Virus record (IMG/VR): IMGVR_UViG_3300037961_002050
Location: 1 to 22,745 of that record
Length of the DNA stretch: 22,745 nucleotides
Reading direction: 5' to 3' (one strand)
Source of the DNA: a virus
This document shows, piece after piece, positions 3,138 through 20,061 of this stretch. Every line of letters starts with the position of its first letter. The first letter of the stretch is position 1. Below the pieces are notes generated by a model. That model was not told where the DNA came from. It searched no databases and saw nothing but the letters and a program-made list of their open reading frames with translations. Both the position numbers and the translations under genes were made by a program.

Positions 3138-3494
3138 ATGTATAAGTATTTCAAGATCTCTGAGTTCGACAGCCCCGACGAACCGGGGTCAGGCGAAATG
3201 ATGGAGCCGGCAGTCATTGAAGCGTTGGAGAACGCACGTGACCTTGCCGGTTTCCCGTTTGTAGTGACGAGTGGGGTGCGGACCATCGCACACAACCGAG
3301 CTGTCGGAGGGTCGCCCCGGTCAAGCCATCTTTTAGGCCTCGCGGTTGACCTGCGCGTAGACAACAGCGAACGCCGCTACCTCATGGTTGAGGCATTGCT
3401 CGACGCGGGTTTCAATCGCATTGGAGTGGCCGAGAACTTCATCCATGCCGACATGGACAAAAACAAAAAACCCAACGTACTTTGGACATACTAA
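3138..3494 (+). CDS. M15A-type peptidase (probable endolysin)
   Basis: 118 residues, a complete small M15A domain. The zinc ligands expected for the family are present: His64 and Asp71 in SSHLLGLAVD, and His103 in FIHAD. TSGVRT near residue 44 is the conserved loop before the active site. The family cleaves D-Ala-containing or L-Ala-D-Glu peptide bonds of peptidoglycan. Single-domain M15A proteins next to portals or tail genes in Bacteroidota phages are usually called endolysins, and the adjacent membrane protein fits. No signal peptide is visible, so export would need a holin. The final codons overlap the metallophosphoesterase gene by 13 bases. Confidence 0.85.
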   Translation: MYKYFKISEFDSPDEPGSGEMMEPAVIEALENARDLAGFPFVVTSGVRTIAHNRAVGGSPRSSHLLGLAVDLRVDNSERRYLMVEALLDAGFNRIGVAENFIHADMDKNKKPNVLWTY

Positions 3495-4327
3495 GAAAGA
3501 GCCGCACGGTTCACCACGTTGACCTCGATTTTAAAAAGAGAGGCACCGACAAGAACCTCTTGTTCATCTCGGACGTCCACTACGACAGCGTCAAATGCGA
3601 CCGGTCACTCTTGCACCGCCACCTTGAGGAGGCGCGACGCATCGGGGCCGGCGTTTTTATTTTTGGCGACCTGTTTGACCTCATGCAAGGACGCTTCGAC
3701 CCACGGGGCAACTACTCCGAACTGCGGCCTGAATACAAGTCGTGCACATACGTGGACGAAGTCATACAGGACGTGGGCGAGAAGCTGGCCGAGTACAAGG
3801 ACGTCATCCGGTTCATCTCACGCGGCAACCACGAAACCAATATCGAGAAGCGCATGATGGTTTCGCCCATTGACAGGGTGGCTCAAATCATCAACGCCGC
3901 AGGTGGAAGGGTAGAGACGGGCGGTTATGCCGGCTGGCTTGGGATGACGTGTCATCGTGGTGGCAAAAGTTGCAAGCGTTTCCTCGTACACTACCACCAC
4001 GGGTATGGCGGCAACGCGAAACGCTCAAAGGGTGTACTGAACAACGACCTCGACCTCGCGCAATTCCCTGACGCCGACTTCATTGTTCGCGGCCACGACC
4101 ACAACAAGTGGTATCACCCTGTGACGGTCGATCGCATTAACCTCAAAATGAAGCTCGAACAAAGCACGCGCTACATTATGCGCCTTGGATCGTACAAAAA
4201 ACTCGGGGACCGCTTTGCAGGTTGGGCCACCGAGAAAGGGTTCAATACGCCAACCCTTGGGGGCTGGTGGGTGCGCTTTGTGGAAAATAGGGACGAATAC
4301 CGCGTTGAAGTGAGGGACGCCTCGTAG
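3482..4327 (+). CDS. Calcineurin-like metallophosphoesterase
   Basis: 281 residues if started at TTG 3482. The ordered metal-binding motifs are complete: SDVHYD (Asp31, His33), GDLFD (Asp63, Asp66), RGNHE (Asn116, His117), VHYHH (His170, His172) and RGHDH (His205, His207). This is an intact two-metal phosphoesterase core; members cleave phosphomonoesters, phosphodiesters or DNA ends. The specific substrate cannot be inferred. The start is unusual: no ATG precedes the first motif, and the frame is open back to 3392. TTG 3482, overlapping the peptidase stop, is the simplest choice. The next 164 bases are non-coding and hold terminators and promoters, so this is the last gene of its transcription unit. 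Confidence 0.85.
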   Translation: MDILRKSRTVHHVDLDFKKRGTDKNLLFISDVHYDSVKCDRSLLHRHLEEARRIGAGVFIFGDLFDLMQGRFDPRGNYSELRPEYKSCTYVDEVIQDVGEKLAEYKDVIRFISRGNHETNIEKRMMVSPIDRVAQIINAAGGRVETGGYAGWLGMTCHRGGKSCKRFLVHYHHGYGGNAKRSKGVLNNDLDLAQFPDADFIVRGHDHNKWYHPVTVDRINLKMKLEQSTRYIMRLGSYKKLGDRFAGWATEKGFNTPTLGGWWVRFVENRDEYRVEVRDAS

Positions 4328-7076: not shown

Positions 7077-7252
7077 GCGACAAAAAAATCGCACAAGGTT
7101 GGATTGACGGAGGGGGCTACGGCTCCCTCCCACCCAACTCGCACAAGAAAAGCAGTAAATACCACACGGGGCCGCAGAAAACGTACTACAAAGGCGTCAA
7201 AACGTGGGATCCTTGGAAGAAACGTTGGTGGGTTATTCAGACGTACCCATGA
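7073..7252 (+). CDS. Hypothetical basic protein, 59 residues
   Basis: ATG 7073 overlaps the previous stop by ATGA, and TGA 7250-7252 overlaps the methyltransferase ATG by ATGA. The 59-residue product is basic and aromatic, with a glycine-rich N-terminal stretch (GWIDGGGYGSLPP) and a Trp-rich end (WDPWKKRWWVI). It has no family I recognise. It likely bridges translation into the methyltransferase gene. Confidence 0.55.
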   Translation: MSDKKIAQGWIDGGGYGSLPPNSHKKSSKYHTGPQKTYYKGVKTWDPWKKRWWVIQTYP

Positions 7253-8133
7253 ATCACGGGTCATTATTTTCAGGAATCGGAGGTTTCGATCTTGCCGCGC
7301 AATGGGTTGGTTGGACAAACGTATTCAATTGCGAGTGGGAGGACTTTCCCCGCCGCGTACTTAAACATCATTTTCCACATGTCACGCAACACAAAGACAT
7401 CAGGGACCTCGACGCGACAACTTACGCTGGACGAGTTGATATTGTCAGCGGAGGGTTCCCCTGCCAACCATACAGCCTCGCCGGAAAGCGAAAGGGCAAA
7501 GACGACGAGCGCCACCTGTGGCCCGAGATGCTTAGGGTTGTTCGAGAATGCGCCCCGCGCTACGTCGTGGGCGAAAACGTTCGCGGGCTTGTTAGTTGGA
7601 ATGGAGGGATGGTCTTCGAGGAGGTGTGTACTGACTTGGAAGCTCTTGGGTACGCCGTTCAACCGTTCGTACTTCCGGCTTGCGGCGTCGGCGCCCCCCA
7701 CAGACGAGATAGAGTTTGGTTTGTTGCTCACACCGACCACAAGGGAGGAGGTGATGGACACGCAGAAGTTCAAGGAGCGCATGGAGAAGTACGACAACGG
7801 GACAACAGTGCCAAATTTGGCAACGCAAGTCGTCGGACTGCTACCAACGCCGACAGCCGACAACGCCAGCGACAGGACGAAAAATTACGCACAGGGAGGG
7901 ACGCCACTGCCGATGGCGATTCGCGCTCTCTTGCCAACTCCAACGGCGTACGACTGGAACACAGCGAGGAGTCCGGAGAAGTGGGACGAGTTCTCACAGG
8001 CGTTACGCACAAGCCGCTAAAGCAACTTGCTGGGACAAATTTCCAACTGTCGCCCCTGTTTGTGGAGGAGATGATGGGATTCCCGAGAAATTGGACGGCA
8101 TTACCTTTCCAAAGTGGCGACGAGAAAGCATAA
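7249..8133 (+). CDS. dcm: DNA cytosine-C5 methyltransferase, C-terminus frameshifted
   Basis: 294 residues as read from ATG 7249. Motif I FSGIGGFDL (7-15), motif IV GGFPCQPY with catalytic Cys72, motif VI ENV (109-111) and motif VIII GAPHRRDRVWF (148-158) are intact. These bind S-adenosylmethionine and form the covalent cytosine intermediate, giving 5-methylcytosine. Residues ~160-250 would be target recognition. The last ~35 codons read QLSPLFVEEMMGFP, which I associate with the overlapping +1-frame family. The expected Dcm end (ESIKAYGNAIVP, motif X) lies in frame at 8010-8219. A single missing base near 8005-8022 would restore a 323-residue enzyme. Without it the product lacks motif X and may be inactive. 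It probably supplies 5mC to the TET-like oxygenase at 11755. Confidence 0.85.
   Translation: MNHGSLFSGIGGFDLAAQWVGWTNVFNCEWEDFPRRVLKHHFPHVTQHKDIRDLDATTYAGRVDIVSGGFPCQPYSLAGKRKGKDDERHLWPEMLRVVRECAPRYVVGENVRGLVSWNGGMVFEEVCTDLEALGYAVQPFVLPACGVGAPHRRDRVWFVAHTDHKGGGDGHAEVQGAHGEVRQRDNSAKFGNASRRTATNADSRQRQRQDEKLRTGRDATADGDSRSLANSNGVRLEHSEESGEVGRVLTGVTHKPLKQLAGTNFQLSPLFVEEMMGFPRNWTALPFQSGDEKA
7292..8020 (+). other. Long +1-frame ORF inside dcm with periodic TPT motifs
   Basis: The +1 frame of dcm stays open for 242 codons (TTG 7292 to TAA 8018-8020). It contains three spaced motifs: LLLTPTT at 7721, LLPTPTA near 7838 and LLPTPTA near 7928. The same bases encode HTD, TNAD and ANSN in the dcm frame. 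Sequences with repeated LPTPTA followed by MMGFP are familiar to me from databases, usually as unnamed or methyltransferase-annotated proteins. I cannot tell whether this frame is translated or is a by-product of dcm codon constraints. It is listed as an overlapping ORF, not as a confirmed gene. Confidence 0.4.
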
Positions 8134-8219
8134 AGGCCTACGGCAACGCAATTGTACCACACGTGGCCTTGCAGATTTTTAAGGCGATTGAATCTTTGGA
8201 AAATGGAACGAGAATTTAA
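8010..8219 (+). pseudogene. Out-of-frame C-terminal segment of dcm (motif X)
   Basis: In the frame one base back from dcm, the sequence reads from about 8010 through CWDKFPTVAPVC and GGDDGIPEKLDGITFP to KWRRESIKAYGNAIVP, ending at TAA 8217-8219. The GNAIVP block is Dcm motif X, which packs against motif I to complete the cofactor site. The preceding FPTxxPVCGGDDG block is typical of this Bacteroidota methyltransferase group. Its stop overlaps the replication gene start by 17 bases, the same overlap seen at several other junctions here. This supports it as the true ancestral C-terminus, separated by a one-base change. Confidence 0.75.
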
Positions 8220-8892
8220 GGGCGTATGGATTCCAGCCGAAGTGTGGTTGGACACAAAGTTGACGTTGGTCGAAAAGGCATTGCTTGCTGAGATTGATTC
8301 GTTCACTGGTGCGGGCAAGAGCTTTCACAAGTCGAATGAAACAATACAAGTTGAATACGGCATTAGCCGTCCGACAATTTCAAAGGCCATCAAAAAACTT
8401 CAGGGCTTGGGGTACATCACATCGACATCAGACGGTCGCGTTCGTCACTTAGTCGTACAAGCAGACCGAAAAATTCTTACGGGCAGGGGGAAAGATTCTT
8501 TCGGGCAGACCGAAAAAACGTTTCGGGCAGAAGGAAAGAATAGTACCCCTACTAATACATTAGAGAGAACAAGTAAAAAAACAATCAAAGGGAGTAAGGC
8601 ACGCCCACAAAATTTGGACGAGGTTTTGGAAGCGTTCAAAGCCGTCGGCGCCGAGGAAGTAGACGCAATGCAGTTTTACGACTACTACTCGGCCAACGGT
8701 TGGACACAGGGCCGTGGCAAACCCATCAAGGACTGGAAGGCCGCCGCGCGCGGTTGGATTCGTAGAACACAACAATTCAAAGCAAATGAAAGACCTCGCA
8801 AAGGCACAACAACAACTGGCCCATCGGACGGCTCACTCATTGAGCAACATCTCCGCCGCCTCGCGGATGGATCCGGTACAGGCATGGCGTGA
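8203..8892 (+). CDS. DnaD-like replication initiation / replisome organizer protein
   Basis: 229 residues from ATG 8203 (MEREFKGVWIPAEVW). Residues 1-85 form a winged-helix domain (TLVEKALLAEIDSF; recognition helix SRPTISKAIKKL; wing GYITSTSDGRV) of the type at the front of phage replisome organizers. A low-complexity linker (88-135) follows. The C-terminal module FYDYYSANGWTQGRGKPIKDWKAAARGWIRR (158-188, quoted in parts: FYDYYSANGW, KDWKAAARGWIRR) is the conserved tail of DnaD/helix-turn-helix replication proteins. It should melt the origin and recruit helicase. The linker is encoded by four 22-bp DNA iterons, as in lambda O. Confidence 0.75.
   Translation: MEREFKGVWIPAEVWLDTKLTLVEKALLAEIDSFTGAGKSFHKSNETIQVEYGISRPTISKAIKKLQGLGYITSTSDGRVRHLVVQADRKILTGRGKDSFGQTEKTFRAEGKNSTPTNTLERTSKKTIKGSKARPQNLDEVLEAFKAVGAEEVDAMQFYDYYSANGWTQGRGKPIKDWKAAARGWIRRTQQFKANERPRKGTTTTGPSDGSLIEQHLRRLADGSGTGMA
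8455..8542 (+). repeat. Four tandem 22-bp iterons (probable origin of replication)
   Basis: Four head-to-tail copies start at 8455, 8477, 8499 and 8521, exactly 22 bases apart. The core is TTTCGGGCAGA in copies 3 and 4, TTACGGGCAG in copy 2 and GTACAAGCAGA in copy 1. Each core is followed by a GAAA-type A-rich half (for example CCGAAAAA in copies 1 and 3). Because 22 is not a multiple of 3, the encoded peptide does not repeat, so selection must act on the DNA. Two helical turns per unit fits side-by-side initiator binding. Confidence 0.75.
8531..8590 (+). other. AT-rich putative DNA unwinding element
   Basis: Directly after the iterons, 42 of 60 bases are A or T (70 percent), within an otherwise GC-richer operon. 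It is purine-rich on the + strand, with an A7 tract at 8575-8581. Iterons followed by an AT-rich stretch inside the initiator gene is the arrangement of the lambda origin. Confidence 0.5.
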
Positions 8893-9430
8893 AGGCGTTA
8901 ACGTTCAAGCCGCCTACAACAACCCTCAAACGCAAGCGGCGGTAGAAGCTACCTTGATTGCGATGGTCGCGAAGACGCTCCGGTACTTGGACTACTCCCG
9001 AACCATCACAGCCGACCAAGACATCATCGACGCTGTAGAACACTTGCGCCTTGAGTTCCCGGCCATGAAGCTCGAAGAATGGGCAATCATATTCCACCGG
9101 CTGAAGACGGGTCAATATCGTCCCGGTTACGAGCGTTTGAAGTTGCCTGAACTTGTGTCTATATTTCAGCAGTACGAAGGCGAACGCGCCGAGCGTCGCG
9201 AGGAAAATTGGGGTGAGTTAAAAAAGCACACACCAAACAACCTGAACGACGAGCAAGTGCAAGCCTTATACGCCAAATACGCACAACAACGCCGTGAAGC
9301 GATCGAAGCCGCTAAAAAGGAAACCGAAGTCAAGCACGTCCCAACGGACGAGCGAGGCCGGTGGAACTTCATCCCGTACCCGAACACGAAAGACAACGAA
9401 CCCGAGGGGGGCGATGGTCAAAAAGGTTGA
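8786..9430 (+). CDS. DUF6633-like replication accessory protein
   Basis: 214 residues from ATG 8786, overlapping the replication gene by 107 bases. ATG 8867 would cut the overlap to 26 bases and is a good alternative. The central region (TITADQDIIDAVEHLRLEFP, then LEEWAIIFHRLKTGQYRPGYERL, given in parts) matches a helical pattern I recall from DUF6633 proteins of Bacteroidota elements, with the YERL..PELVSIFQQYEGER end. These proteins sit beside DnaD-like genes, so a helicase-loader or accessory role is likely but unproven. A charged C-terminal tail follows. It overlaps the nuclease gene by 17 bases. Confidence 0.5.
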   Translation: MKDLAKAQQQLAHRTAHSLSNISAASRMDPVQAWREGVNVQAAYNNPQTQAAVEATLIAMVAKTLRYLDYSRTITADQDIIDAVEHLRLEFPAMKLEEWAIIFHRLKTGQYRPGYERLKLPELVSIFQQYEGERAERREENWGELKKHTPNNLNDEQVQALYAKYAQQRREAIEAAKKETEVKHVPTDERGRWNFIPYPNTKDNEPEGGDGQKG

Positions 9431-9797
9431 TGCGGTCTTCTCTCAATACGTGCGGCTCCGCGCGACAGACGACACAGGACACGGGGAGTGCTACACGTGC
9501 GGCTCGCGTCGGCATTGGTCAGAGGTTGATGCAGGGCACTTTATGTCTCGGGCTTGTATGTCTACCCGGTGGCACGAGGACAACGTGCAATTCCAGTGCA
9601 AGCGTTGTAATGGATTTAGGTCGGGTGAGCAATTTCTTTTTGCCCGCAACCTCGACGCTGAGTTTGGCGAAGGAAAGGCTGAGGAGTTATTCATCGAGTC
9701 CAAGCAAACGCGCAAGTGGACGCGCGCCGAGCTTGAACAAATGTATCACCACTATAAGCGCCTCGTCGATGAGCTCCGAAGCTCGAAAGGGATTTGA
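9414..9797 (+). CDS. NinG/Rap-like recombination nuclease
   Basis: 127 residues from ATG 9414. Zinc pairs CYTCG (Cys26, Cys29) and CKRCN (Cys62, Cys65) flank the conserved DAGHFMSRACMSTRWHEDN block (His42, His54), the signature of phage NinG proteins. Lambda NinG (Rap) is a structure-specific nuclease that cuts recombination junctions. The usual ~200-residue family is longer at the N-terminus, so this is a compact version. It sits among replication genes, as ninG does in lambdoid phages. It shares 29 bases with the sigma-like gene. Confidence 0.75.
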   Translation: MVKKVDAVFSQYVRLRATDDTGHGECYTCGSRRHWSEVDAGHFMSRACMSTRWHEDNVQFQCKRCNGFRSGEQFLFARNLDAEFGEGKAEELFIESKQTRKWTRAELEQMYHHYKRLVDELRSSKGI

Positions 9798-10961: not shown

Positions 10962-11209
10962 CAAACAAACCTTTAACCTTCCGCAAGGCCAAACGCCTTT
11001 TGAATCAATGCGACGACTGGGTGCTGTTCACGTCGAAGAATAACAACGACGACACAGCTAACCTCGAGTGCGCCACCATGACTTCCACGTCATGGGCAAT
11101 CCTCATTGACTTCGCAACCGCAGACGAAAACTTTTACAATGCCCTTGAAACCATCCTCCACACGGCCCGTGACATACGCGAAAACGGCCAATCTGAAGAC
11201 GAATCCTAA
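10958..11209 (+). CDS. Hypothetical protein, 83 residues
   Basis: ATG 10958 (ATGA overlap) starts an 83-residue acidic protein with no recognised family. A central segment (LECATMTSTSWAILIDFAT) looks like two beta-strands and the C-terminus (NALETILHTARDIRENG) like a helix. It overlaps the ParB-like gene by about 41 bases if that gene starts at GTG 11169. Function not assigned. Confidence 0.6.
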   Translation: MTNKPLTFRKAKRLLNQCDDWVLFTSKNNNDDTANLECATMTSTSWAILIDFATADENFYNALETILHTARDIRENGQSEDES

Positions 11210-11771
11210 CAACCCGCGCGCAATTCGCAAGGATCAACTTGACAAGCTCGTCAAGAGCCTGAAGGAATTCCCTGAAATGCTCGAAGCTCGGCCTATTGTC
11301 ATCGACAAAGATGGCGTGGTGCTTGGCGGCAATATGCGTCTACAAGCGGCACAACGCGCCGGCCTCGAAGAAGTGCCTGTGTACGTGCGAGAATGGGACG
11401 AAGCCAAAGACAGTCAATTTGTTGTCAAGGACAATGTCAGTTTTGGTGAGTGGGACTGGGACATGTTGGCAAATGAATGGGAAGTAGACGACCTCAAGGA
11501 CTGGGGTTTGTACGTTCCAAAGTGGGACGACACAAACTTTGAAAGCGACATCGAGGACACAGGCGAATACGACTACCCGGAGGATCTTGTGCCAAACTCT
11601 CAGGTGCGTATGGTTCAATTGTTCATGAACAGCGAAACCGAGCCGGAATTCAAAAAGTGGGAACTGGCTTTGCGTGGCCCGCACGGTACAGACAATCTGA
11701 CCGACACCATCTACGAGGTGGTCAAGAAAGCGTATGAAGACGGATTCGAGCATTATGGCGAAGGTTCATAA
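11169..11771 (+). CDS. ParB-like (ParB/Srx fold) protein
   Basis: 200 residues from GTG 11169; the domain itself begins around 11187, and other starts (ATG 11139) are possible. Residues ~8-80 carry the ParB/Srx pattern: NPNNPRAIRKDQ, ARPIVIDKDG, VLGGNMRLQAAQRAG. The next block (FVVKDNVSFGEWDWDMLANE, WEVDDLKDWGL) is the linker seen in ParB-methyltransferase fusions, but no methyltransferase domain follows; the protein ends in a helical tail. It could bind DNA or a nucleotide and partner with a separate modifying enzyme. It overlaps the TET/JBP-like gene by 17 bases, suggesting a shared task. Confidence 0.7.
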   Translation: MTYAKTANLKTNPNNPRAIRKDQLDKLVKSLKEFPEMLEARPIVIDKDGVVLGGNMRLQAAQRAGLEEVPVYVREWDEAKDSQFVVKDNVSFGEWDWDMLANEWEVDDLKDWGLYVPKWDDTNFESDIEDTGEYDYPEDLVPNSQVRMVQLFMNSETEPEFKKWELALRGPHGTDNLTDTIYEVVKKAYEDGFEHYGEGS

Positions 11772-12651
11772 AGTCCGGCCGCGATTGACGGACGAGCAAA
11801 CCAAAAAGCTCTCCGGGACGTTGTTGACAGACAAGGACTACAACAAGCTATTTACGTCCGACGTTGATGTGTACGACGAGGAAACCGGCCAATGCATTGC
11901 GAAGTTTCGCAAGCGCGTCATACCATCAAACATTGCTGAAGCGGCCTATGAAAACCTTAAGAAGGCCGCCACGCCAACGAACAACAGAGGCACAAGCACA
12001 GGGACTTCAGATGGCAAAGGCAAAGTGTCGCACCACCGCGTGAAGAAGGATGGTACCATTTCAAACTCTACTGGCGCACATACAGCCGTCAACAGTGGCA
12101 TCATCGGTTTTTTTGACAGGAACGCGCGTTACCCATATTGTCGGCAAACGGCCTTCAACATCAATGAATTCGACAAGTTCAAGAAGGCGTACCCTATCAT
12201 CAAATTCGTAGACAGCCAGTACGAGAAACTGATGCCTGATCACTACGCCAAACAAAGGGCCGTGGCAGACAATACCTCAAGTGACTTCACAATTCACAAC
12301 ACGGCGTTCACAACGGTGACGGTCAACAAGAATTGGCAGACAGCCGTACACACTGACAAGGGTGACTTCGCCGAGGGTTTTGGCAACCTCGTTGTGCTTC
12401 GAAAAGGCAGGTACACGGGAGGCTACTTCGTATTGCCCAAATGGGGCGTGGCGTTCGATATGCAGAATTGTGATTTGCTCCTGACTGACGTTCACCAATG
12501 GCACGGCAACACACCAATACACAAAATCGACGAAGATGCAACGCGCGTCTCGCTGGTCATGTACTACCGTGAGAACATGATTCACTGCGGCACGGGAGAG
12601 GAGGAAGCGCAAATTGCCAAGCGGCGTCAAAAGGGAACACGGCTAACGTAA
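11755..12651 (+). CDS. TET/JBP-like 2-oxoglutarate/Fe(II) DNA dioxygenase
   Basis: 298 residues from ATG 11755. The C-terminal half has the double-stranded beta-helix core: AVHTDKGD gives the HxD iron ligands His199 and Asp201; LLTDVHQWHGNTP supplies the distal His (247 or 250); and Arg264 in ATRVSLVMYY fits the 2-oxoglutarate-binding Arg. The order NKNWQTAVHTDKGD, GGYFVLPKWGVAFD, HGNTP matches TET/JBP proteins, which hydroxylate the methyl group of 5mC or thymine in DNA. The N-terminal ~110 residues are extra, with a low-complexity Ser/Thr/Gly part near 75-90. The methyltransferase upstream points to 5mC as substrate; thymine remains possible. Confidence 0.8.
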   Translation: MAKVHKVRPRLTDEQTKKLSGTLLTDKDYNKLFTSDVDVYDEETGQCIAKFRKRVIPSNIAEAAYENLKKAATPTNNRGTSTGTSDGKGKVSHHRVKKDGTISNSTGAHTAVNSGIIGFFDRNARYPYCRQTAFNINEFDKFKKAYPIIKFVDSQYEKLMPDHYAKQRAVADNTSSDFTIHNTAFTTVTVNKNWQTAVHTDKGDFAEGFGNLVVLRKGRYTGGYFVLPKWGVAFDMQNCDLLLTDVHQWHGNTPIHKIDEDATRVSLVMYYRENMIHCGTGEEEAQIAKRRQKGTRLT

Positions 12652-13262
12652 TGTGTGGGGTCGTCGGGTTTTCGTGCGACGCGCCACAAGCCGCGCACTA
12701 CGAGTTGCTCAAACGCATCATGCGTGAAAGCAAGATTCGTGGGTTGCACAGCTTCGGAGTGGCGTACGTCGACGACGGCATCAAGGTCAACAAGGTCCAC
12801 GACCTCGACGAGCTTGACATACCTCAGGCCACGCGCATCATTTTCCACAACCGCTACTCGACAAGCGGGGACTACCTCGACCACGAGAACAACCAACCCT
12901 TGTCAAACAAGTCAACGGCGCTTGTATTTAACGGTGTCCTTGACATGCGTACAAAAGACGAAATGGAAGCCGCGTACAACGTCACTTTGTCGTGCGACAA
13001 TGACGGTGCGCTACTGCTCGAATTGTGCAATGACGACCCCGAGGAAATGTTGCAGTGGACGAAGGAACGCAACGCCAGTTTTGCTGGCTTGGTTTTAAGC
13101 TCGTCAAATGTGCTGACCGCCTTCCGCAATGCCAACCGTCCTTTGTGGCTGGCAACATACCAGGGCGGGCTATATTTCGCTTCGACAAGGGACATTTTCA
13201 TGAGGGCAGAACCGTCGTTGGATCCAATAGAACTCAAACCGGACACCCTCTATGCAGATTAG
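12651..13262 (+). CDS. Class II glutamine amidotransferase
   Basis: 203 residues; ATG shares one base with the previous TAA. The start MCGVVGF gives the N-terminal nucleophile Cys2 after Met removal. RGLHSFGVAY, HNRYSTSGDY (Arg68), ENNQPL, VFNGVLDM (Asn94-Gly95) and CDNDGALLLEL complete the GATase II set as in GlmS and PurF. It would release ammonia from glutamine. There is no synthetase or isomerase domain, so ammonia must go to a partner enzyme. Lying between a DNA dioxygenase and an AGPT-like transferase, it is a likely nitrogen donor for base modification; that is inference. Confidence 0.85.
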   Translation: MCGVVGFSCDAPQAAHYELLKRIMRESKIRGLHSFGVAYVDDGIKVNKVHDLDELDIPQATRIIFHNRYSTSGDYLDHENNQPLSNKSTALVFNGVLDMRTKDEMEAAYNVTLSCDNDGALLLELCNDDPEEMLQWTKERNASFAGLVLSSSNVLTAFRNANRPLWLATYQGGLYFASTRDIFMRAEPSLDPIELKPDTLYAD

Positions 13263-13656
13263 AAAAGCCATAGCCACCGACGCGGACTTCATTAAGAAGA
13301 TTCACAAGCAACACAAGGCACACATTGGTTCGTTCAACCTTTTTTGGAGTTGGGACCACTACCTTGACGGGACAAACAAAAGCAAGTTCTTTGTCATTGA
13401 AGGCGGTGGCTTCATGCGCTACTCGTATTCAAAAATGTACACGGCCTACATCTTGCATGAGATAGGCGTCGACAATGAGACGACACGCAAGGGCGTCGGC
13501 CGAGCATTATTTGAAGCCCTCCCGCGCCCCTTGATGCTCAAGTGCAATGTTGACAACGACCGGGGCAATGCGTTTTACGAAGCAATGGGGATGACCAAAA
13601 TGGGAAAGACGGCTACGAAGAAAGGCGTCGAGCAAAACGTATGGTGGATTACCTGA
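13252..13656 (+). CDS. GNAT-family N-acetyltransferase
   Basis: 134 residues from ATG 13252, overlapping the amidotransferase by 11 bases. Motif A is visible as LHEIGVDNETTRKGVGRALF (RKGVGRA is the acetyl-CoA pyrophosphate loop) and motif B as NDRGNAFYEAMGM. GNAT enzymes move an acetyl group from acetyl-CoA to an amine. In this operon the likely acceptor is an amino group placed on the modified base, as proposed for GNATs in other phage hypermodification clusters. A protein or small-molecule target cannot be ruled out. It overlaps the next gene by 16 bases. Confidence 0.8.
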   Translation: MQIRKAIATDADFIKKIHKQHKAHIGSFNLFWSWDHYLDGTNKSKFFVIEGGGFMRYSYSKMYTAYILHEIGVDNETTRKGVGRALFEALPRPLMLKCNVDNDRGNAFYEAMGMTKMGKTATKKGVEQNVWWIT

Positions 13657-14510
13657 CATACCACGTCGAGTCGTCCAAGGCGAAAGACATCGACCCAAGC
13701 AACGACGCCCTGCGGTATGTCGCAGATCGTTTCGAGCTTAATGTCGAACAACGCTACTGGCTTGCATTCCTTTTTGGCACGTGCTACTCGGCAACAAACG
13801 TCTACTACATCTACAATGAGTTCCCGGACTACGAAAATGTAGACGTCGGTCGACTTCAAAGGTGGTGGGACACGAATCGCGACCGCACATTGTTTCAAAC
13901 TGACCGCCTCCGCGTCAAGACGCAAAACAGGTTCGTCGAAACGTTTGTCAGCTACCGCGACCTGCTCAACGGCATGACGCAAGAAGAATACTTTGAGGGG
14001 CTAAAGCAACCGACGCGACAAAACACGTATGACAACGCCTTCCGTGACTTGTCAGGCATTCGCAACTTCGGGCGCTTCACAATGTTCATTTATCTTGAGA
14101 TGGTCAACGTGTTGACAGGCTTTGATCTCGAGCCAACACACCTTGACCTCGCCAATGCCGAAAGTTGTCGCAACGGCCTCGTGTATCACCTCGGAAAGAT
14201 GGAGCTCGACACACACGGGAAGAAAACAAGGTTGACAAAGAAGCAACTCGGCTACCTTCAATACGAGTTTCAAATGTTGAAGTCACACGTCGGAACTTAC
14301 GACATTGCACACCGCAACATTTGGAACATTGAAACAACCCTGTGCGCCTACAAGAAGTACCGACGCGGCAAGAGGTACGTCGGCTACTACATTGAACGTA
14401 TGCGAAAGGAAATAAACAAGATGGAAGGCAACGTGCCAACGGGCGTTGATTGGTCTGTCCTGTGGGACTTCCGACGCGAAACCTACGACCCGAAATGGCT
14501 CAACGAATAA
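13641..14510 (+). CDS. AGPT-pyrophosphorylase-like protein (HMUDK-helical type)
   Basis: 289 residues from ATG 13641, all-helical. Key stretches are VEQRYWLAFLFGTCYSATNV (35-54), GIRNFGRFTMFIYLEMV (139-155), DLANAESCRNGLVYHLG (169-185) and a basic C-terminal region (YKKYRRGKRYVGYYIERMR). I recognise these as the alpha-glutamyl/putrescinyl thymine pyrophosphorylase group, also seen as the helical domain beside hydroxymethyluracil DNA kinases. The family is proposed to replace the phosphorylated hydroxymethyl of a DNA base with an amine. Immediate overlap (16 bases) with the P-loop DNA kinase is the expected partnership. Confidence 0.7.
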   Translation: MVDYLTYHVESSKAKDIDPSNDALRYVADRFELNVEQRYWLAFLFGTCYSATNVYYIYNEFPDYENVDVGRLQRWWDTNRDRTLFQTDRLRVKTQNRFVETFVSYRDLLNGMTQEEYFEGLKQPTRQNTYDNAFRDLSGIRNFGRFTMFIYLEMVNVLTGFDLEPTHLDLANAESCRNGLVYHLGKMELDTHGKKTRLTKKQLGYLQYEFQMLKSHVGTYDIAHRNIWNIETTLCAYKKYRRGKRYVGYYIERMRKEINKMEGNVPTGVDWSVLWDFRRETYDPKWLNE

Positions 14511-15019
14511 TTGCCATTGGTGGCACGCCCGGAAGCGGGAAGACCACCCTCATGCTCAAGGTTCTCGACAACTTCAAGGGCAAACTACGCACCTTCAGTT
14601 ACAAGAACCTTCGAGGAATGCATAGCAAGGAAGACAACCTCTACATCCTCGGGGTCTATGATGGATCGACATTTAGCGGCACGGACAAACTCGCGATGAA
14701 TGTCTTTCCGCACTTCACGTCGTTTCTGTCAAAGGTGCCCGAGGCCGTAGTATTGTTTGAAGGCAACCGCCTGTTTGTGCCGAAGCTGTTCGACAACCAC
14801 GAGTGCGACATCTTAGTAGTCCGCGCCGACAGCGACCTCATTGAGCAACGGTTTGTCAATCGTGGGAGCAACCAGCCGGAACGTTTCTTGAAGGCGGTGA
14901 AAACCAAGACAGAGCGTATCATTGCAAAGTACCCTTCGACAATCCTACACAACAACAACGAGGAAGACCTCGAAAGTAACACACAACACATTTTGAGCTT
15001 GATTCATGAACAAAACTGA
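14495..15019 (+). CDS. Hydroxymethylpyrimidine DNA kinase-like P-loop protein
   Basis: 174 residues from ATG 14495. Walker A is GGTPGSGKTT (residues 9-18). YILGVYDGSTFSGTDKLAMN and VVLFEGNRLFVPKLF follow in the order I know from the 5-hydroxymethyluracil DNA kinases of phages with hypermodified thymine. The enzyme would phosphorylate the hydroxymethyl group of a base already in DNA, activating it for the AGPT-like transferase encoded just before. With a TET-like enzyme as the source of hydroxymethyl, 5hmC is the most economical substrate, though 5hmU is possible. It overlaps terS by 14 bases. Confidence 0.75.
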   Translation: MAQRIIAIGGTPGSGKTTLMLKVLDNFKGKLRTFSYKNLRGMHSKEDNLYILGVYDGSTFSGTDKLAMNVFPHFTSFLSKVPEAVVLFEGNRLFVPKLFDNHECDILVVRADSDLIEQRFVNRGSNQPERFLKAVKTKTERIIAKYPSTILHNNNEEDLESNTQHILSLIHEQN

Positions 15020-17432: not shown

Positions 17433-17884
17433 TAACCTACACCAACATCGTGAACCGTTTCGAGGCATTCGTCGCGGCCAACCCGTTTGTGCAGACGTTT
17501 AGCTTCGGCTCGCCCTCCGACGTCGACTTGGACAAGTTGGAGACGTACCCGATCCTTCACCTCGTGTACACGGGTGCCAGCTACGAAGGAAGCTCGAAGA
17601 CCTACTCGTTCGAGGTGTACATCTTGGACAACCCGCCCAACGACGAGTCCAAGGTGGACTTTCAAAAGGGCGCCATCACAAACGCCGAACAAATTGCCGA
17701 GGACATCTTGGCCGACATGGAGCGCGGTGGGGAGGTGTTCACCTTCGCCCATCGCTTTGATGTCGCCAGCGCCTCGACCGTCCCGCTTGAGGAGGAGGGA
17801 AGCAACGTGCTGTCCGGCGTCCTCTTGAACCTTTCCGTGACCGTTGGTTACGAACACGACTCTTGCAACTCACCACTCACATGA
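17429..17884 (+). CDS. Tail completion / minor tail protein
   Basis: 151 residues from ATG 17429, ATGA overlap on both sides. The start TYTNIVNRFEAFVAANPFVQ, then SDVDLDKLETYPILHLVYTG and FEVYILDNPPND, recalls small Bacteroidota phage proteins placed between tail chaperone and fibre genes. They look like tail-terminator or completion proteins: an alpha/beta fold with one long N-terminal helix. No membrane or catalytic features are present. Position between the chaperone and the fibre supports a tail role, but the exact joint it occupies is not known. Confidence 0.55.
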   Translation: MITYTNIVNRFEAFVAANPFVQTFSFGSPSDVDLDKLETYPILHLVYTGASYEGSSKTYSFEVYILDNPPNDESKVDFQKGAITNAEQIAEDILADMERGGEVFTFAHRFDVASASTVPLEEEGSNVLSGVLLNLSVTVGYEHDSCNSPLT

Positions 17885-20061
17885 ACAACTGGAAACTCCG
17901 GGCCGTCGTAAACGACAACCAAGACATGGACCTCTACGAGGCCAACGGCTACCTCGCCCGCTTTTACAACTCTGACGTCAGCGTCGCCTTCGTTCCGTTT
18001 GGCGACAAATTCCCGCACCCTCTACGAACCACGGCGTCGGACGACTTTGGGCCTGTCTCAAACCAAGTGCCGGGCATTTGCAACGGCACCTTCACCCACA
18101 CCGGGTCGGGCTCTGCAACCGTACCGGCGACCACGCTGTCCGGCAGTGGTGCAAACGCAACATTTCAATACACGTTTCTTGATGACGGCACGCTCTCAAC
18201 CATTGTGGCGATTTCCAGTGGCTCGGGCTATCTTGTAGGCGACAAGCTCCGCATCACCACGAGCGCCTCGCACGGTTCACAGGTCATTGAGTTCCGCTTG
18301 GTCGATGGGTCCAACGCTTGCTTGCGTTATGCCATCCTGAACCACGACCGCACGCACCCCTCCCTTCCTTTCCCGGTTCACAAGTTCCGCATCAACAACG
18401 CGAGCAACCGTGAAATTCATATTCTCGACTACAGGAGTTCGCAGGTCTTCCCAAAGCCACAGGACAAGCTCCTTGACAAGTACCCCGACGCGGCGGCGGC
18501 CTACGGCTTGCGCCTCTTGCGTTCGGCCTACCTCGGCCCTGCCATCCGCGTGCGTCGTACAAACGACAACGCCGAGAAGGACATCTACATGGACTCACAG
18601 GGCAACCTCGACACGGCTACGTTGACGGCTTTCGGTGGCTCTTTTTCGCTGAAGGTCAACAAGTGGTACGACCAGTCAGGCAACGGAAACGACGCAAGCC
18701 AAACGGCAGGCTCGGCTCAACCGACCATCTACAGCGCCGGCGCGTTGGTCACGGTCAACGGCAAGCCCGCACTGGACTTCGACGGAAGCGACGACTCGTT
18801 CAGCATTGACCACACTGACCTCAAGAACCAAGACCGCTTCGACGCATATATGCACTACCAAACCTCGGACGGCGTGTACATCATGTTTGTGGGTGACGGA
18901 GGGGGCAAGTACAGCTTTGTCCCGCAAGACACAGGGACCACAGAGACATCCTTGAGTTCGCAGTACGACATCAGCGGAACCCAACCGACGCTCTACGTCA
19001 ACGGAATCAAGCCGGGCATCGTTTATGGCACCACAAACCGCGACGACCTGCACACAATGATGGTCACCAACGCGGCTTCACACTCCAACGGGGCCATCAT
19101 GGTTCACGAGGCCGCTGGCACGCAGGGTTGGACTGACTTGAGCATCAGCACCTACAGCGGCTTCCGCTTCGACGGCAAGATGACCGAGATGGTGCTTTAC
19201 AACACCGACCAGTCGGCCAGCCGCGAAGGCATCGAGAAGGACATGGCCCTGCACTCGGGAGCCTACCAAGTGGAGGACGCGCCGTTGCTTGACGCCTACG
19301 GGGGTGCCCATGCGGCGTACTCCCTCCGCAAGCTGAACAGCGACTACACGGGGGCGGCGGTGCGTATTGCCCGCGACAGCGACTTGGCAGAACAGGACAT
19401 CGGCTTCGACGCTAACGGCAACTTAGATACAGCGGCGGCCCTTGCTTTTTGCCCTTCGCAATACGGGCGAATCAAAAAGTGGTACGACCAAAGCGGAAAC
19501 GGCAACGACACAACCCAAAGCAGTCAGGCCGGACAGCCGATTCTTGTAGAGCAAAACAACTCCGTCATCACCGTCGACGGCCAACCGGCCCTTCGTTTCT
19601 TTGGTACTGACGACATCCTCCCCTTCGACAGCACAGGCCTCGACATTGGCAACCTTTCGTCGTTCTTGGTTTGCAAGGTTGGCGTTACTTCGGGGACACA
19701 CAGACCCTTGACTTTGAGCGGACCGGCAAGCAACAACCGATGGTACGCGCCTCAAGTCGGCTCTGACAACTTTGTGTTTAATTGCGGCAACGAAAGCGTC
19801 AGCACTTCGGCAAACACGAACAACAACCTGCACACCATGATTGCTGGAGCTACGCAGGGCGACGCGGAAGCCTTCATCAATGGAACAAGCGTTGGCACCA
19901 TGACCTTGGATAGCGGCATCGACCCAGCCACCACAGGCATCGGTGGTATCTCCAACGCATTCCTGAACGGCTTCATCCAAGAGGTCGTCGTTTACTCGAG
20001 CGACCAAAGCGAGCGCCGCCTCGGTATCGAACGCAACATTTCAAACCATTACGACTTATGA
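17881..20061 (+). CDS. Large tail fibre / baseplate protein with two LamG/arabinofuranosidase-like modules
   Basis: 726 residues from ATG 17881. Residues 1-185 form a module also found in the protein at 20629-21171 (GSGYLVGDKLRITT, HGSQVIEFRLVDGSN). Two related modules follow: one near 206-310 (AAAYGLRLLRSAYLGPAIRV, KWYDQSGNGNDASQ, NGKPALDFDG) and one near 478-585 (AAYSLRKLNSDYTGAAVRIA, KWYDQSGNGNDTTQ, DGQPALRFFG). Each is trailed by a concanavalin-like sandwich. The WYDQSGNGND pattern belongs to arabinofuranosidase-B-like and LamG-type domains common on phage fibres. It probably binds or trims host surface glycans; catalytic residues are not clear. Confidence 0.75.
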   Translation: MNNWKLRAVVNDNQDMDLYEANGYLARFYNSDVSVAFVPFGDKFPHPLRTTASDDFGPVSNQVPGICNGTFTHTGSGSATVPATTLSGSGANATFQYTFLDDGTLSTIVAISSGSGYLVGDKLRITTSASHGSQVIEFRLVDGSNACLRYAILNHDRTHPSLPFPVHKFRINNASNREIHILDYRSSQVFPKPQDKLLDKYPDAAAAYGLRLLRSAYLGPAIRVRRTNDNAEKDIYMDSQGNLDTATLTAFGGSFSLKVNKWYDQSGNGNDASQTAGSAQPTIYSAGALVTVNGKPALDFDGSDDSFSIDHTDLKNQDRFDAYMHYQTSDGVYIMFVGDGGGKYSFVPQDTGTTETSLSSQYDISGTQPTLYVNGIKPGIVYGTTNRDDLHTMMVTNAASHSNGAIMVHEAAGTQGWTDLSISTYSGFRFDGKMTEMVLYNTDQSASREGIEKDMALHSGAYQVEDAPLLDAYGGAHAAYSLRKLNSDYTGAAVRIARDSDLAEQDIGFDANGNLDTAAALAFCPSQYGRIKKWYDQSGNGNDTTQSSQAGQPILVEQNNSVITVDGQPALRFFGTDDILPFDSTGLDIGNLSSFLVCKVGVTSGTHRPLTLSGPASNNRWYAPQVGSDNFVFNCGNESVSTSANTNNNLHTMIAGATQGDAEAFINGTSVGTMTLDSGIDPATTGIGGISNAFLNGFIQEVVVYSSDQSERRLGIERNISNHYDL
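18484..19629 (+). repeat. Internal duplication in the fibre gene
   Basis: The segments around 18496-18810 and 19309-19629 encode the same module order: AYxLRxLxSxYxGxAxRxxR, then GNLDTA, then KWYDQSGNGND, then NGKPAL or DGQPAL. Identity is clear at the protein level and patchy at the DNA level, so the duplication is old. It explains most of the gene's length. Confidence 0.65.

Follow-up and report, generated by a model that had tools for sequence, protein, structure and literature searches.

What does a glutamine amidotransferase do in the middle of a viral DNA modification operon? The question is raised by the IMG/VR virus record IMGVR_UViG_3300037961_002050, a stretch of 22,745 bases analysed here at full length (the window). 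It contains portal and terminase genes and, directly before the terminase genes, a run of tightly overlapping genes at 11106–15019, in which a stand-alone class II glutamine amidotransferase (GAT) follows a TET/JBP oxygenase and precedes a member of the amino acid:DNA transferase family (ADDT). We propose that the GAT passes glutamine-derived ammonia to the ADDT, which would convert a 5-phosphomethyl pyrimidine in DNA into a 5-aminomethyl base, with acetylation by an optional GNAT enzyme; we regard this as the probable function of the pair, with moderate confidence. The operon reads, in order:

11106..11771, + strand: ParB-like protein, first gene of the operon (Pfam ParB_N, 5.9e-8)
11734..12651, + strand: TET/JBP 2-oxoglutarate (2OG)-Fe(II) dioxygenase, proposed to form a hydroxymethyl pyrimidine (Pfam Tet_JBP, 2.7e-29)
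12651..13262, + strand: stand-alone class II GAT, 203 amino acids (aa) (Pfam, PHROGs, residues C2/R68/N94/G95/D118, fold)
13252..13656, + strand: GNAT N-acetyltransferase, 134 aa, optional in relatives (Pfam Acetyltransf_7, recurrence in relatives)
13641..14510, + strand: ADDT, proposed aminotransferase partner of the GAT (PF18724, 2e-18; fold)
14450..15019, + strand: P-loop kinase, proposed to phosphorylate the hydroxymethyl base (Ploopntkinase3, 1.1e-5)

A sequence-only reading had drawn attention to the GAT and GNAT; its coordinates for both match open reading frames (ORFs) exactly, and it correctly placed the GAT between oxygenase and transferase, overlapping the GNAT. The TET stop and GAT start have one base in common, GAT and GNAT overlap by 11 bp and GNAT and ADDT by 16 bp. 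With TET, P-loop kinase and ADDT contiguous, a candidate hydroxymethyl source, kinase and transferase stand in one cluster, as in phage thymine hypermodification. The kinase scores 25.5 bits, slightly below the Pfam cut-off of 27, and its true start is possibly the ATG near 14495. The ParB-like gene is also found upstream of TET in loci without a GAT; PADLOC gave a methyltransferase-type match to its product (1.5e-11) and weak matches to the GAT and kinase.

By its residues and predicted fold the GAT is a class II (N-terminal nucleophile, Ntn) amidotransferase, for which glutaminase activity is predicted. It matches Pfam GATase_6 (E 1.3e-9; 38.6 bits, with the cut-off at 27) and, in PHROGs, phrog_4736 (L-glutamine-D-fructose-6-phosphate aminotransferase; 1e-14) and phrog_14519 (glutamine amidotransferase; 5.5e-12). 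The landmarks claimed for it beforehand, Cys2 (directly after the Met), Arg68 and Asn94-Gly95, are all present, as is Asp118. In an alignment of 114 distinct ORFs, which include near-copies and a few cultured-phage GATs, Arg68, Asn94, Gly95 and Asp118 are each kept in 114/114 rows and Cys2 in 112/112 rows that reach that position. From GlmS and PurF, we take Arg68 to be the glutamine-binding arginine, Asn94-Gly95 the oxyanion pair and Asp118 their counterpart aspartate. The AlphaFold2 model (predicted local distance difference test, pLDDT, 95.9) matches PurF (1ecb; Z 19.5, root-mean-square deviation (rmsd) 3.2, 195 residues aligned) and GlmS glutaminase (1xff; Z 19.2), and sequence searches place PurF first. 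The earlier remark that no synthase domain is attached is also correct, the 203 aa comprising the glutaminase domain alone; stand-alone class II GATs exist, so a fused synthase does not define the class. A GAT–ADDT fusion was sought as direct proof of partnership, and none occurred among the ORFs scanned.

The transferase had been called AGPT-like, a label that has to be replaced: PF18724 (ADDT) is far stronger, at 67.4 bits against a curated cut-off of 26.2, whereas the aGPT-Pplase3 match (3.4e-4) falls under its cut-off. Because a PDB sequence search with the ADDT profile gave 0 matches at E 1, fold comparison was needed. The AlphaFold2 model (pLDDT 95.5) has one clear structural relative, 8z2m/8z2n (Foldseek 1.9e-4, template modelling (TM) score 0.63), titled in the PDB as the 5-phosphomethyl-2'-deoxyuridine glycinyltransferase gp46/PUGT of Pseudomonas phage PaMx11. 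Alignment with 8z2m gave Z 19.6 (rmsd 3.2, 254 residues, 14% identity), and the next structures, a queuine salvage enzyme and a DNA glycosylase, lay at Z 8.1–9.5. The window protein therefore groups by fold with an enzyme that places a nitrogen nucleophile on a phosphomethyl base. It is assigned to the ADDT family, whose members load an amino acid onto 5-phosphomethyl-dU; for the GAT-linked clade we propose ammonia as the substrate instead.

Loci were fetched from IMG/VR with the window TET, ADDT and GAT and with alignments of GAT, ADDT, TET and kinase. The GAT scan returned at least 573 confirmed relatives, 80 of which were kept; in the genomes scan only 2 of 63 pattern matches encoded a relative. 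ADDTs were classed by best-scoring hidden Markov model (HMM) or query as ADDTa (window type), ADDTb or ADDTc, with ADDTa over-sampled because the queries started from the window. The sample drawn with the kinase first (the best 80 of 252 relatives) is the fairest, since the kinase is common to several branches of this chemistry. It had 59 readable loci, those with a GAT counting as readable automatically, and 21 interrupted by a contig end. A GAT was present in 31 of the 32 readable loci with ADDTa, the exception being locus L363, and in 0/27 of the others (0/16 ADDTb, 0/7 ADDTc and 0/4 without a recognised ADDT). When 140 unique full-length ADDTs were pooled (12 unreadable), a GAT accompanied 105 of 106 readable ADDTa and 0/22 readable ADDTb/c, with L363 counted as readable and GAT-less though a 1500-bp rule flagged it unreadable.

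The ADDT tree is a better test than these counts, the classes having been set by best-scoring HMM or query. Among its 68 rows (ADDTs clustered at 80%, plus references), one branch with support 89 holds all 39 GAT-linked rows and one unreadable row, and the 24 rows scored GAT-less all fall outside it. The latter include L363, two Ackermannviridae phages, a similar Vibrio phage, M6, Tonitrus and a PUGT-type protein; for L363 and six reference rows the label was assigned by hand from locus inspection. The GAT branch divides into a 33-row branch with the window and a 7-row sister branch, shows no GAT loss among its readable rows and extends to a Prevotella metagenome-assembled genome (MAG) contig (L235), whose ADDT lacks a PF18724 match and was found by our ADDT profile. 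The association with AGPT/TET genes put forward from the window alone thus survives comparison across relatives, as a tie between the GAT and one ADDT clade. Among the matches listed (60 of 135 for the GAT, 60 of 348 for the ADDT, and 60 of 183 in another listing), no cultured phage combining such a GAT with such an ADDT was noticed.

The two genes also co-evolve. Tree-distance correlations were calculated for 70 loci with GAT, ADDT, TET and kinase, leaving out small-kinase loci (L202 type) that the kinase HMM missed. GAT–ADDT gave 0.94 (partial 0.94), while the other pairs were TET–kinase 0.77, GAT–kinase 0.62, ADDT–kinase 0.50, GAT–TET 0.45 and ADDT–TET 0.30; with one locus per 80% cluster (29 loci) the values were 0.94 for GAT–ADDT, 0.52 for TET–GAT and 0.35 for TET–ADDT. 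Gene order varies, being (ParB-)small kinase-GAT-ADDT-TET in 24 of 109 unique loci and TET-GAT-(GNAT)-ADDT-kinase in most others, and across these rearrangements the GAT precedes the ADDT, either immediately or separated from it by a GNAT, in some loci also by an amidoligase. The genes, folds and catalytic residues, the linkage to one ADDT clade and the co-evolution are established, and the GAT–transferase partnership is well supported by comparative genomics, drawing on clade linkage, co-evolution and the PUGT-like fold. In the Prevotella MAG contig, where the GAT again lies just before the ADDT, the cluster (L235:6486-11750) reads ParB-ParB-GAT-ADDT-kinase-GNAT-radical SAM with no TET seen; a Tet_JBP scan of this MAG gave no match with its controls silent too, which leaves absence unestablished, and there was one thymidylate-synthase match.

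What such a pair might make is suggested by the genes that occupy the same slot elsewhere. In syntenic loci (those of the L011 and L016 type), the genes between TET and kinase encode a different ADDT and a protein of 262 aa. The profile of the latter finds 8z2o/8z79 'Flavin-dependent lyase' (9e-13, 7e-12); for the ADDT of this type, the matches are 25qc, titled 'Amino acid:DNA transferase domain-containing protein', and 8z2m, titled 'Glycinyltransferase'. In Pseudomonas phage PA_LZ03, ADDT, flavin enzyme and acetyltransferase are consecutive. No flavin-lyase homologue was detected in the window at E 1 (two queries), and none in the 93 GAT loci counted. The slot thus holds either a glycine-plus-lyase module or GAT plus ADDT, an alternation that would be expected were both to lead to an aminomethyl base. 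According to its title, Wen et al. 2024 concerns Nalpha-GlyT and 5-NmdU, which we take to be 5-aminomethyl-2'-deoxyuridine (5-aminomethyl-dU). By analogy, this slot swap is our strongest hint at an aminomethyl product.

A GNAT beside GAT and ADDT fits an amine product, because enzymes of this family act on amines. The window GNAT is a weak Pfam match (Acetyltransf_7, 6.9e-6, 26.8 bits against a cut-off of 27), but many relatives have a member of its family in the same position. Of 105 GAT–ADDT pairs, 50 have a member of the GNAT family, 37 have a gap below 60 bp and no GNAT, and 18 have a gap of 71 to 1550 bp with no GNAT by HMM; gaps were taken from stop-to-stop frames, and true start codons may be later. 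A Pfam scan of eight of these 18 found a GNAT-like ORF in 8/8 (below cut-off in L276 and L294), some with an amidoligase-like gene as well; the HMM undercounts GNATs in these gaps. Among 115 tabulated loci, GNATs (44) are confined to those bearing a GAT. As the GNAT is optional in relatives, acetylation would be a late extra step. A different filler between TET and ADDT is a pyridoxal phosphate (PLP)-dependent protein at L053:8895-9968 (PALP, below cut-off).

From these comparative data we infer ammonia transfer, direct amination, the identity of the base and acetylation, as follows. TET would hydroxylate a pyrimidine 5-methyl group in phage DNA, probably taking thymine to 5-hydroxymethyl-dU (5-hmdU), perhaps directed by the ParB-like protein, and the P-loop kinase would phosphorylate the hydroxymethyl group. 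The GAT would hydrolyse glutamine at Cys2 and the ammonia would go to the ADDT, which would use NH3 in place of its relatives' amino acid, displacing the phosphate to leave a 5-aminomethyl base; a GNAT, where present, would acetylate the amine to 5-acetylaminomethyl. The sequence-only reading had proposed this outline from gene order, with nitrogen from glutamine put on the activated base and the amine then acetylated; the comparative data back the partnership that it implies. In PurF, ammonia from the GAT reaches a domain in which it displaces pyrophosphate. GAT and ADDT would together make up a glutamine-dependent DNA-base aminotransferase, each supplying one half, with the logic of PurF split in two genes and applied to DNA. 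A broader proposition, which we judge evenly balanced between right and wrong, is that in a widespread, mostly uncultivated phage lineage the ADDT became an ammonia:DNA transferase within such a two-gene PurF-like enzyme, exchanging phosphate for NH2 on 5-phosphomethyl-dU in one step, bypassing the glycine-plus-flavin-lyase route and serving as a hub for capping enzymes (GNAT, sometimes amidoligase).

The modified base is probably thymine. The solved ADDT relative is named for deoxyuridine, and no homologue of the window's C5-cytosine DNA methyltransferase (7204–8133; DNA_methylase 8.5e-43) was found in 31 GAT loci with at least 5.5 kb upstream (single phmmer query, E 1e-5); thymine is favoured on both counts. 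The presence of this methyltransferase in the window leaves room for a cytosine system, in which it would make 5-methylcytosine (5mC), TET would take this to 5-hydroxymethylcytosine (5hmC) and the amine would be placed on cytosine, a scheme that overlaps with the partnership proposed here. We consider it unlikely, though worth keeping in view; the methyltransferase gene ends approximately 3 kb before the operon. For uracil derivatives, passages of PMC5977210 describe pyrophosphorylated hydroxymethyluracil in the DNA of phage PhiW-14 as preceding putrescine attachment, and 5-aminomethyluracil appears as a natural phage base in a list in PMC11550810.

Several observations weigh against the ammonia-transfer interpretation. 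Linkage and co-evolution do not tell the function of the GAT. Every gene pair correlates above chance (Mantel, at most 2 of 999), and the wide-sample Spearman values for TET–GAT and TET–ADDT reach 0.65 and 0.67. Within the core clade (43 loci) all pairs lie at 0.61–0.93, with TET–GAT at 0.91 and TET–ADDT at 0.93; there the operon therefore travels as one block, and the GAT–ADDT contrast belongs to the wide sample. The GAT branch, at support 89, carries no star, and a warning by the tree program that long branches meet around L363 makes the placement of this locus unsure. In that locus an N6/N4 DNA methyltransferase (849–1520), and no GAT, fills the slot between TET and ADDT. The same methyltransferase stands immediately before the ADDT of L364, scored as cut by a contig end, so that L364 probably shows this one exception again. 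PA_LZ03 bears an acetyltransferase of the window GNAT family (2.4e-11; 6e-10 in a single pairwise comparison) beside its flavin enzyme and without a GAT. Finally, ADDT positions such as Ser11, Arg30, Gln86, Lys239 and Arg253 vary little or not at all within the GAT clade and differ outside it; we set this residue set aside as a specificity signature, since the PUGT glycine site is unmapped and loss of amino-acid binding cannot be read from it.

How else might the GAT be employed? The ADDT could attach an amino acid as its relatives do, and the GAT, with an ATP-dependent partner, could amidate the carboxylate of the adduct to give a glycinamide-like base. Amidoligase_2-like genes do adjoin the GAT in a subgroup (L306, L320, L326, L338, L339, L348), and in the L328 type they follow the kinase. 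Coordinates noted for these genes in or beside the operons are L320:3669-4529, L348:3560-4426 and L328:6646-7686 and 7722-8513; only the amidoligase-like gene of L328 exceeds the Pfam cut-off, and the L328 type additionally encodes, downstream, another and dissimilar GATase-like protein (weak, 0.005). Such a gene could be the ammonia user in that subgroup, a further point against our proposal, and passages of PMC12783734 describe a ligase cluster in CmoX/CmoY phages that carries a glutamine-hydrolysing domain. The window itself has no amidoligase-like ORF at E 1 (two amidoligase-like queries) and no ATP-dependent ligase named among the 20 proteins scanned with Pfam, amidoligase-like matches occur in only 14 of 366 loci scanned, and the amidoligase-bearing tree rows (L321, L326, L328, L348) all belong to the 7-row sister branch, the window being in the 33-row one. 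On this evidence, amidation seems improbable for the window. Hydrolysis on the DNA is another role that we would not expect, at a similarly low level of probability: the ADDT would attach glutamine or a gamma-glutamyl compound and the GAT would trim it to an amine or glutamate, in the manner of EgtC, a stand-alone Ntn enzyme that is an amidohydrolase and not an ammonia donor. EgtC fits the GAT model at Z 18.4, less than 1 to 1.1 under GlmS and PurF, and this closeness also counts against ammonia donation; the fit to PurF and GlmS is no worse, PurF leads the sequence searches, and an amide nitrogen is in general a poor nucleophile.

The GAT could also be a passenger, or have an unrelated role (with ParB or an amidoligase, for example), its linkage reflecting hitch-hiking in a compact operon. 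The cultured-phage GATs examined (LUZ24, Waltz) adjoin amidoligase, RimK-like or GGCT genes without an ADDT, and in 20 kb of Arthrobacter phage Ottawa no ADDT was recognised beside its genes for amidoligase, GAT, TET and kinase. Passenger status is nevertheless quite doubtful, given catalytic residues that are invariant over deep divergence, no GAT loss among readable rows inside the branch, and a GAT that tracks the ADDT, not TET or kinase, in the wide sample. Ottawa (L374) was considered as a cultured GAT–ADDT example and rejected, two unnamed ORFs also giving no ADDT, and it speaks against an exclusive GAT–ADDT bond. It has an amidoligase annotated as a carboxylate amine ligase, a GAT, three ParB-like genes, TET and kinase, and is a possible laboratory entry point.

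Compared with known systems, the ammonia-transfer proposal combines familiar parts. The window ADDT and PUGT have PF18724 in common (1.6e-27 for the PA_LZ03 relative) as well as the fold, but only 14–15% identity, and nitrogen would come from glutamine in the window, whereas PUGT's comes from glycine. The PUGT-type PA_LZ03 cluster, with kinase-like and acetyltransferase genes and a proposed aminomethyl product, differs in having an annotated thymidylate synthase and no TET match, while hydroxymethyl in the window would come from TET. Thymine hypermodification as in phages M6, YuA, Lydia and ViI, with a set of ADDT, PLP enzyme, radical SAM and kinase, is built on an ADDT and a kinase like the window operon (gene table of Lydia); there an amino acid is attached and then tailored by the PLP and radical SAM enzymes, and no GAT match was found in the stretches fetched for M6 and Lydia. 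PurF and GlmS have the same class II fold and residues in their GAT half, but are fused single chains acting on small molecules, in place of two genes and DNA. The five-gene hypermodification system of Rhodococcus phage Tonitrus resembles the window in its order of ParB, TET, aGPT/ADDT and kinase (PMC11955845), and differs in having neither a GAT nor a GNAT annotated, with no GAT match in the stretch fetched. Glutamine amide nitrogen is thought to reach a DNA base or precursor in Gat-QueC and in proposed CmoY-like clusters, according to passages of PMC6884629 and PMC12783734; in these cases (phage 9g dG+ and GAT-bearing CmoY-like ligases) the GAT is fused to QueC or to an asparagine-synthetase-like ligase, and bases and chemistry differ. 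The amidoligase-GAT-GGCT clusters of LUZ24 and Arthrobacter phage Waltz contain related class II GATs (approx. 28–32% identity) beside amidoligase, RimK-like or cyclotransferase genes, with no ADDT in the stretches seen.

Glutamine nitrogen reaching DNA is thus precedented, as are ParB-TET-aGPT-kinase clusters. In the literature listings searched, neither a GAT tied to an ADDT clade nor a paper connecting a glutamine amidotransferase with TET/ADDT thymine modification was seen; Iyer 2013 could describe such a neighbourhood. If the proposal is true, no earlier enzyme would, to our knowledge, have used glutamine nitrogen to aminate an alkyl carbon in a DNA base, and glutamine-derived ammonia would be added as a nitrogen source beside the glycine (PDB titles) and putrescine routes. 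The proposal predicts that many uncultivated viruses contain 5-aminomethyl-dU and the N-acetyl form of this base; amine or acetyl-amine thymines would be plausible shields against restriction. GAT and ADDT would form a compact pair for reconstitution, a DNA-acting counterpart of PurF, and an enzymatic aminomethyl handle on DNA could serve labelling.

In some relatives (L028, L033, L037, L241–L243 and L245–L247), TET is followed by glycosyltransferase-like genes, named by eye, without kinase or ADDT; a gene of phage P12024L annotated as a glucosyltransferase beside TET matches one of these. Elsewhere in the window, we noted a Peptidase M15 (3138–3494; 7e-16), a Calcineurin-like phosphoesterase (3482–4327; Metallophos 6.2e-7, PHROG DNA repair exonuclease), a NinG-like protein (9294–9797; 3.1e-18) and a 732-aa protein with two ArabFuran-catal stretches (17863–20061; 2.3e-19), perhaps a tail or receptor-binding protein.

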